The notes under the pieces were generated by a model, which saw only the letters and a program-made list of their open reading frames with translations, searched no databases and had not been told where the DNA came from. A stretch of 64,000 nt of DNA from Psychrobacter sp. P11G3. GTDB lineage: Bacteria; Pseudomonadota; Gammaproteobacteria; Pseudomonadales; Moraxellaceae. A program made the translations under genes and the position numbers. Below are positions 33,811-36,000 of this stretch, one piece after another (within the stretch, counting starts at the first letter, position 1; every line of letters starts with the position of its first letter). The stretch covers positions 2,899,298 through 2,963,297 of the forward strand of contig NZ_CM003596.1 in NCBI RefSeq assembly GCF_001435845.1. Direction: 5' to 3'.

Positions 33811-36000
33811 CTAAAATAAAAAATAACGCTGTGCCATGGGTAGTACATCGGCTGGCTCACAGGTGAGTGTTTTACCATCCGCACGTACTTCATAGGTCTC
33901 AGGATTGATGTCCATATCTGGGCAGTAGCTATTAAAGCGCATATCGCTTTTACGAATTTTACGGATGCCATGTACTGGCTGAATGACTTTGGTCAACCCG
34001 AGCTGTTTATCCACCTGTTTGTCGATCGCCGCTTGCGACATAAAGGTAATGCTAGTTTGAGCAACCGATTTTGGATATGTCGCAAACATAGGACGATAAT
34101 GCACAGGCTGAGGAGTAGGAATAGAGGCATTAATATCGCCCATCGGTACCGCAGCAATGAGTCCACCTTTGATGATGCACTCAGGTTTTACCCCAAAAAA
34201 CTTGGGCGACCATAGCACCATATCTGCCCATTTACCCACTTCGATTGAGCCGACCATATCGCTAATACCGTGAGTAATCGCAGGGTTTATTGTATATTTT
34301 GCGATATAGCGCTTGATACGGAAGTTGTCGTTGTCCGCGCTTTGGTCATAGTCTGTCAAAGTGATGTACTGTTGCTCATCTTCAATGTTCGCCGTTGCAT
34401 CTGGCGCTAGATGGCCACGTTGAACTTTCATTTTGTGCGCGGTTTGCCAAGTACGAATTACTACTTCACCCACTCGCCCCATGGCTTGTGAGTCACTACT
34501 CATCATTGAGATAGCACCCAAATCATGCAAGATATCTTCTGCGGCGATGGTTTCTTGACGAATACGGCTTTCAGCAAAGGCCACATCTTCAGCGATAGCA
34601 GGGCTCAAGTGATGACAGACCATCAGCATATCGAGATGCTCATCAATAGTATTGACGGTATATGGACGCGTTGGGTTTGTTGAAGAAGGCAGCACATGCG
34701 ACTCGCCAATAGCCTTTAGAATATCGGGCGCATGGCCCCCGCCCGCCCCTTCAGTATGGAAAGTATGGATACAGCGGTTTTTAAAAGCAGCGAGCGTACT
34801 TTCGAGATAACCGCTTTCATTTAAAGTATCGGTATGAATGGCCACTTGTACATCATAGTCATCAGCGACACTCAAGCAGTTATCGATGGCTTGCGGGGTT
34901 GTACCCCAATCTTCATGTAGCTTTAGTCCCACGGCACCTGCTTCGATTTGCTCAGCAATGGGTTCTGGTACACTTACATTGCCTTTACCCAATAGCCCAA
35001 TATTCATAGGAATACTATCGGTAGACTTTAGCATCGAGGCAATGTGATACGCCCCCGGTGTACAAGTAGTAGCGAGCGTTCCTTGAGCTGGCCCTGTGCC
35101 GCCGCCTAGCATTGTGGTCACGCCTGACATAAGCGCCGTCTCACACTGCTGAGGCGCGATAAAGTGAATATGACTATCGACGCCACCTGCTGTCAGAATT
35201 TTGCCTTCACCAGAGATTATCTCGGTAGCTCCGCCAATAGGAATATCGATGGCAGGCTGGATATCAGGATTGCCCGCTTTGCCAATGGCACTGATACGAC
35301 CATCTTTGATACCGATATCCGCTTTATAGATGCCTGTATAGTCAACGACTAATGCATTGGTAATAACTGTATCGGCAACTTCCGCGCCTAGCAATTGTCC
35401 TTGTCCCATGCCATCACGAATGACTTTACCACCGCCAAATTTAACTTCTTCACCTTTGATTTCAACAGGCTTGCTACTACTCTCACCACTTTGCGACGTA
35501 TCCGCTTGATCAACAGCAGTATCTTTATGACTGGTTAAATCTGCTTCAACCTGTAGCCAAAGCTCGGTATCGGCAAGACGGACTTTGTCACCTGTGGTAG
35601 GACCAAAATGCTCAGCATAAATGCGACGACTGACTCGTTTTTGCGAAGTAGCGGTTACCTTCTTATCAGTAGTGCTCTCTGATATTTTGTCTGGATGAGC
35701 GGCGCCCATGACGCGCCCAGCAAAACCATATACATCTTGCTTGCCAGCATATGCTACCAATTCGACTTCCCGCGATTGGCCCGGCTCAAAACGTACAGCG
35801 GTGCCAGAGATAATATTGAGACGAAAACCCCGAGTCTGCTCTCTCTCAAAGCTCAAGGCATCATTGACTTCATAAAAGTGATAATGCGAGCCGATTTGGA
35901 TAGGTCTATCACCAGTATTGCTGACACTGATGGTCTGCACCTGTCGCCCTTGGTTTAAGATAATATCGCCATCTTGGATATGGTATTCGCCTGCTTGCAT
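33811..36000 (-). CDS. ureBC: Fused urease beta-alpha subunit (UreBC)
   Basis: A single 729-residue frame. Residues 1-101 are UreB (beta): GEYHIQDGDI, GDRPIQIGSHYHF, TAVRFEPGQ. A charged linker of about 20 residues follows, then UreC (alpha) from about 123. Nickel and active-site residues by alignment to Klebsiella UreC are His277, His279, Lys360 (carbamylated), His362, His389, His415, Cys462, His463, Arg479 and Asp503, all present. Two extra stretches are seen: about 24 Ser/Thr/Asp-rich residues at 159-182 and about 20 at 533-555. It hydrolyses urea in the cytoplasm. A separate ureB stop codon is absent. Confidence 0.95.
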   Translation of the reverse strand: MQAGEYHIQDGDIILNQGRQVQTISVSNTGDRPIQIGSHYHFYEVNDALSFEREQTRGFRLNIISGTAVRFEPGQSREVELVAYAGKQDVYGFAGRVMGAAHPDKISESTTDKKVTATSQKRVSRRIYAEHFGPTTGDKVRLADTELWLQVEADLTSHKDTAVDQADTSQSGESSSKPVEIKGEEVKFGGGKVIRDGMGQGQLLGAEVADTVITNALVVDYTGIYKADIGIKDGRISAIGKAGNPDIQPAIDIPIGGATEIISGEGKILTAGGVDSHIHFIAPQQCETALMSGVTTMLGGGTGPAQGTLATTCTPGAYHIASMLKSTDSIPMNIGLLGKGNVSVPEPIAEQIEAGAVGLKLHEDWGTTPQAIDNCLSVADDYDVQVAIHTDTLNESGYLESTLAAFKNRCIHTFHTEGAGGGHAPDILKAIGESHVLPSSTNPTRPYTVNTIDEHLDMLMVCHHLSPAIAEDVAFAESRIRQETIAAEDILHDLGAISMMSSDSQAMGRVGEVVIRTWQTAHKMKVQRGHLAPDATANIEDEQQYITLTDYDQSADNDNFRIKRYIAKYTINPAITHGISDMVGSIEVGKWADMVLWSPKFFGVKPECIIKGGLIAAVPMGDINASIPTPQPVHYRPMFATYPKSVAQTSITFMSQAAIDKQVDKQLGLTKVIQPVHGIRKIRKSDMRFNSYCPDMDINPETYEVRADGKTLTCEPADVLPMAQRYFLF

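Follow-up and report, generated by a model that had tools for sequence, protein, structure and literature searches.

A urease gene of Psychrobacter sp. P11G3 joining the beta and alpha subunits in one reading frame, and its occurrence in Moraxellaceae and other bacteria

We analyzed a 64,000-nucleotide stretch (the window) of contig NZ_CM003596.1 from Psychrobacter sp. P11G3, in which a single open reading frame, here called ureBC, joins the urease beta (UreB) and alpha (UreC) subunits in one chain. Judged from its sequence, ureBC is very probably a functional fused gene of a two-chain nickel urease, with one origin in Moraxellaceae and maintenance by selection. We read it in this way because it combines one frame, complete domains, an intact active site, membership of one clade, purifying selection, the lack of a ureC ATG, and a retained set of accessory genes.

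The gene occupies positions 33811..36000 on the minus strand, from an ATG at 36000 to a stop codon ending at 33811, with 729 codons and no internal stop; its 729-aa product has a computed mass of 78.9 kDa, in agreement with the ~79 kDa estimated in a first-pass annotation of the DNA. The UreB part (residues 1-101; 35698..36000, minus strand) is matched by Pfam Urease_beta (PF00699) at residues 4-99 (140 bits) and by the NCBIfam beta model PRK13203 at residues 1-100 (151 bits; cut-off 129). A 20-residue linker (residues 102-121, HPDKISESTTDKKVTATSQK; 35638..35697, minus strand) leads into the UreC part (residues 122-729; 33814..35637, minus strand), which bears the nickel and active-site residues and is covered by the NCBIfam alpha model TIGR01792 at residues 123-729 (923 bits; cut-off 680) and by Pfam Urease_alpha (best stretch 178-262) and Amidohydro_1 (268-616). 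Both the UreB and the UreC domain exceed curated cut-offs, and the NCBIfam gamma-beta models score ureBC at 107.5 and 126.4 bits, far below their cut-offs of 353 and 243. All 11 UreC active-site positions checked (nickel ligands, carbamylated lysine, and catalytic residues) match Klebsiella aerogenes urease at a constant offset of 143 and are also invariant in our alignment (A1); the numbering follows K. aerogenes UreC, for which C319, K217, H134, H219, H320, and D221 are also found in PDB titles. The first-pass annotation was thus right that UreB and UreC are fused in one frame without a stop, that a charged linker lies between them, and that the nickel and active-site residues are intact. 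Across the whole genome (5 contigs, 3.28 Mb), one UreB match and one UreA match were found and the UreC matches were confined to the ureBC frame, and a second, separate ureB or ureC elsewhere in the genome was therefore rejected.

Fusion is the majority form within the genus when UreB places are classed by frame length. UreB was found in 79 of 105 same-genus genomes, at 80 places in total, of which 58 have a frame length of 702-776 aa and 22 one of 114-145 aa. The long-frame loci that were read, comprising the window and 44 others, are fused without exception (45/45), and the 22 short-frame loci, all read, are separate genes. Open-frame length by itself is no proof of fusion, as several rows of the order and phylum samples that matched UreB only had long frames, and 18 places fetched from these samples proved to be 3 fused and 15 separate; fused assignments in this study rest on the sequence as read, save for the 13 of the 58 same-genus long-frame rows that were not fetched, for which frame length is the sole evidence. 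In the family outside the genus (348 genomes searched, 166 with UreB), at least three fused places in two genera (G334, G335, G365) were confirmed by reading. Of 120 related proteins listed, 119 combine the UreB domain with UreC; the remaining one, P0069, is an alternative, shorter gene call that starts at residue 106. Judged by database names, the nearest relatives are Psychrobacter. One genome, G058, holds both a fused and a distantly related separate urease operon (L338, L339), each with ureD, ureA, ureE, ureF, and ureG.

A UreC tree was built with FastTree, a rough method, from a deliberately fusion-rich sample of 254 sequences (130 from fused proteins; one locus was dropped as too short), of which 143 (59 fused) were kept after 93% thinning within each label. 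The 17 fused Moraxellaceae rows, including two other genera, form one group on a starred branch valued at 100. Its sister group (99, starred) consists of six separate Moraxellaceae rows, among them a named Acinetobacter. Far from the fused clade lie the separate same-genus rows, in a 19-row group (96, starred), and five of them join Halomonadaceae-type rows (99, starred). Because the fused rows form one group and the separate same-genus rows are distant from it, the fusion is placed as ancestral to the Moraxellaceae fused clade, in which it is real and old. The 22 separate same-genus ureases share 53-65% identity with the window in UreB and 60-65% in UreC; by sequence they belong to a different lineage and were probably acquired. 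Vertical splitting as their source was rejected on their low identity to the window and their placement with Halomonadaceae. We propose that the fusion arose once, in the ancestor of Psychrobacter and neighboring Moraxellaceae genera, that the adjacent ureB and ureC genes would have lost the ureB stop and the ureC start, and that ureBC would since have been retained by selection.

The ratio of nonsynonymous to synonymous substitution rates (dN/dS) was pooled over 44 same-genus fused genes, using those pairs (184 of 946) whose core dS fell in the range 0.15-1. The values, 0.060 for UreB and 0.039, 0.018, and 0.033 for three stretches of UreC, show strong purifying selection on both parts; the linker gave 0.46 and two UreC inserts, loop 1 and loop 2, gave 0.18 and 0.13, respectively. 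Measured between the UreB and UreC matches, the linker spans 11-47 residues in 48 fused Moraxellaceae loci and is hypervariable and loosely held by selection; in the window it is predicted to be disordered, with a predicted local distance difference test score (pLDDT) below 50 at residues 105-113. A disordered, fast-evolving linker of this length range would also suit an exposed site at which the single chain is cut, leaving an ordinary three-chain urease as the mature enzyme, but no conserved cleavage motif is evident by eye among the linkers listed, and we hold cleavage to be unlikely.

Internal initiation, which would yield a separate UreC besides the fusion, is rated lower still. In the linkers listed, another residue, most often K or R, stands in place of the ureC start Met; one locus (L220) has an ATG directly ahead of the match. 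No ATG, GTG, or TTG codon occurs within the window linker. Over a scanned stretch of the window junction that begins 6 residues ahead of the UreB match end and takes in the first 12 residues of UreC, the ATG of UreB Met98 was the sole ATG, GTG, or TTG, and no Shine-Dalgarno-like site was found within 20 nt of it in the window. The shorter gene call P0069 and GTG codons near the UreC start in a few relatives are also in favor of such a start, but those GTG codons are not shared across the 48 loci.

The idea that the fusion is an artefact of sequencing or assembly, or a recent loss of the stop codon, was rejected and is refuted for the Moraxellaceae clade, since the junction, which the first-pass annotation had proposed to look for in related genomes, is open in all 45 same-genus long-frame loci read and 119 of the 120 listed proteins have both domains, which rules out base-calling error, while the three fused places in two other genera and the purifying selection on both sides also speak against it; the scattered fusions P0122, P0124, P0139, and P0144, which keep the ureC start Met and sit among separate genes, may be such cases.

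Several points count against the reading of ureBC as a working fused gene with beta docked on alpha of its own chain. In principle, a UreC extended at its N-terminus could be initiated at the Met98 codon, the gene call P0069 begins at residue 106, and the fused copy of G058 is flagged with one TAA, though its frame as read has both domains. The structure, predicted as a monomer and from fused sequences only, aligns with jack bean urease over residues 1-728 (670 residues, 2.3 Å), yet the alpha subunit of K. pneumoniae by itself reaches a Z of 53.1 over 560 residues, slightly above that of the plant chain.

With ureBC taken as a working fused gene, the product would be made in the cell as one 79-kDa polypeptide, in which beta would dock on the alpha of the same chain via a floppy tether, with plant urease as the model; activation would be the usual one by UreDEFG, and assembly would be as (gamma, beta-alpha)3. 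As far as sequence can tell, the fused enzyme works like any urease. The simplest candidates for a benefit of fusion, if there is any, are a fixed 1:1 supply of beta and alpha and no loss of beta.

The UreC part carries two inserts. Loop 1 (residues 153-182; 35455..35544, minus strand) is a lineage-specific insert in the UreC N-terminal domain with 6 to 62 aa in fused relatives: among 45 fused same-genus genes, 5 have a loop of 6 residues and 40 one of 14-62, and three fused genes of other Moraxellaceae genera have 6, 6, and 11. Separate ureases have 6 residues in all 22 same-genus and all 11 other outgroup loci. Elsewhere (92 sequences) loop 1 has 6 residues in 80, 10 in 10, and 23 in 2, so fusions are not the only ureases with a long loop 1. 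It is polar and hypervariable in the fused Psychrobacter clade and is very long in L191, L208, and L220. Loop 2 (residues 532-557; 34330..34407, minus strand) is a 26-aa insert across the fused Moraxellaceae clade: of the 45 fused same-genus genes, 44 have this length and one was not measured, and the three fusions from other genera have 26 or 33 residues. In separate ureases, loop 2 has 8 residues at 20 of the 22 same-genus loci (2 not measured); at 10 of the 11 other outgroup loci it ranges from 7 to 12, and 88 of the 92 sequences from elsewhere have between 2 and 17. Six fusions of other groups have 6 residues in loop 1 and, where measured (2/6), 7 or 12 in loop 2. By these lengths, loop 2 marks the fused Moraxellaceae clade, yet is no general companion of fusion.

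The rest of the urease operon runs in the same direction as ureBC on the minus strand and consists of ureD (36479..37504; PF01774), ureA for a separate 100-aa gamma subunit (36057..36359; PF00547, 157.5 bits), the nickel chaperone gene ureE (33012..33656; PF05194, PF02814), ureF (32228..33022; PF01730), the GTPase gene ureG (31481..32170; PF02492, cobW/HypB/UreG), and a ureJ-like (HupE/UreJ) membrane protein gene (30678..31430; PF04955). UreE has a long His-rich C-terminal tail, likely a nickel store. Among 12 fused loci with flanks, ureD, ureA, ureE, ureF, and ureG lie beside the fusion in 11, and the twelfth, a 4.5-kb contig, carries ureD, ureA, ureE, and ureF; no loss of accessory genes was seen across the 12. 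At L329 (G124), ureE, ureF, and ureG are on the strand opposite to ureD-ureA-ureBC, unlike at other fused loci. The operon of the window is situated between tig and clpP-clpX (29151-40409), and G018 has the identical site, but none of tig, clpP, and clpX was found in the flanks of the other 11 fused loci (one contig of 4.5 kb, one of 11.8 kb), from which we conclude that the operon has moved.

Beta-alpha fusions also occur in other bacteria. We searched for fusion-length UreB proteins with an alphaproteobacterial UreB (897 found, best 120 listed) and a Bacillota UreB (743 found, best 120 listed). Among the matches listed, the beta-alpha fusions are from Elstera cyanobacteriorum (P0141), Defluviicoccus vanus (P0144), Kyrpidia spormannii and K. 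tusciae (the latter a metagenome-assembled genome, MAG; P0153 is a Kyrpidia entry), Sulfoacidibacillus thermotolerans (P0183), Marinomonas algicola (P0191), one Pseudomonas aeruginosa record, and several MAGs; listed proteins of other kinds are P0123, P0131, and P0142 (UreD, gamma, and beta) and P0186 (an unrelated domain). P0132, from a bacterial contig, has gamma, beta, and alpha domains in one gene call. Of the best 80 named genome loci, among which there was no Psychrobacter, ureB and ureC share a frame in 52, including the three that are fused: Neptuniibacter marinus (L083), an Arenicella MAG (L092), and an Oceanobacter MAG (L093). Of 381 genomes sampled from the order, 198 gave a match, and the junction was spanned without a stop in at least 8 same-genus rows and in G680 and G697. 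Of 339 sampled from the phylum, 117 gave a match, and among the matches listed the junction was so spanned in the window and G1151; fusion in G680, G697, and G1151 was confirmed by reading the sequence. Full-chain protein searches at the order and class level are unfit for counting fusions because HMMER splits the match at loop 1 and the listings hold only the best matches.

On the whole tree, the fused/separate label has to change 18 times or more (shuffled mean about 46), and starred branches force 15 of these changes; a single origin of all bacterial beta-alpha fusions was rejected on those 15. The number of true origins is uncertain owing to the fusion-rich sample, the rough FastTree method, and the scattered fusions that sit among separate genes and keep the ureC Met, a few of which may be errors or strain-level events. 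The fusion had been called unusual in the first-pass annotation; this stands in that it is proportionally rare (3 among the best 80 named loci, at least two non-genus genomes among 381, and at least one among 339) but not in that it is the majority form in the genus (58/80) and has arisen several times elsewhere. It is best described as an uncommon but recurring design.

Textbook ureases have three layouts, namely three-chain, Helicobacter gamma-beta, and plant all-in-one. The three-chain K. aerogenes enzyme (UreA, UreB, UreC) has subunits, order, active-site residues, and accessory genes like those found here, but in the window UreB and UreC are one chain and loops 1 and 2 are longer. Helicobacter urease (fused gamma-beta UreA and alpha UreB) is likewise two-chain through one fusion, but there gamma-beta is fused whereas here it is beta-alpha, with ureA a separate 100-aa gene, a mirror-image layout. 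Single-chain plant ureases (jack bean, pigeon pea) have the same beta-alpha junction and align over the whole fused chain; the counterpart of residues 93 to 122 here is the stretch 224 to 273 of jack bean urease, whose linker is about 20 residues longer, and, gamma being separate, ureBC is not of the gamma-beta-alpha type. The other bacterial fusions (P0141, P0144, P0153, P0183, P0191, L083, L092, L093) share its domain order and single frame but differ from the window in UreC-tree position and have unrelated linkers.

One paper (PMC6737895) describes urease as three-chain in most bacteria, fused in plants, and a ureAB fusion in H. pylori. In passages of another (Marsh et al. 2013, Cell, PMC4009401), a beta-alpha fusion of urease is stated from STRING data with no organism named, beta is reported as the first subunit to dissociate from K. 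aerogenes urease, and urease is noted as an exception in which fusions join interfaces not kept on disassembly, since beta leaves first. We found no paper on a bacterial beta-alpha urease in the open-access literature (subscription journals were mostly outside the search), and databases name the fused proteins only 'urease subunit alpha' or 'Multifunctional fusion protein'. As for its presence in many described ureases, which the first-pass annotation had said would count against its being unusual, this objection holds by half: the fusion is common in sequence databases and has the one STRING-based mention in a paper; the two-chain gamma plus beta-alpha layout is not described in the literature searched, though already implicit in databases.

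The beta-alpha arrangement is a fourth urease layout, stable across a bacterial family clade and reached several times, and shows that the plant layout is approachable from the beta-alpha side. It is of special interest in that fusion should forbid the loss of beta, the reported first step of disassembly. A speculative extension, which we put forward as doubtful, is that selection has repeatedly favored the tying of beta to alpha as a change in urease assembly and activation, with nickel necessarily loaded while beta is held on, because a fused beta could no longer leave; the Moraxellaceae fusion would have come with the 26-residue loop 2 and later, in Psychrobacter, with the hypervariable loop 1, and a new interface may be formed or shielded in this way. 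Because fused and separate ureases occur naturally within one genus, and both within G058, it can be tested directly what part the movement of beta plays in activation.
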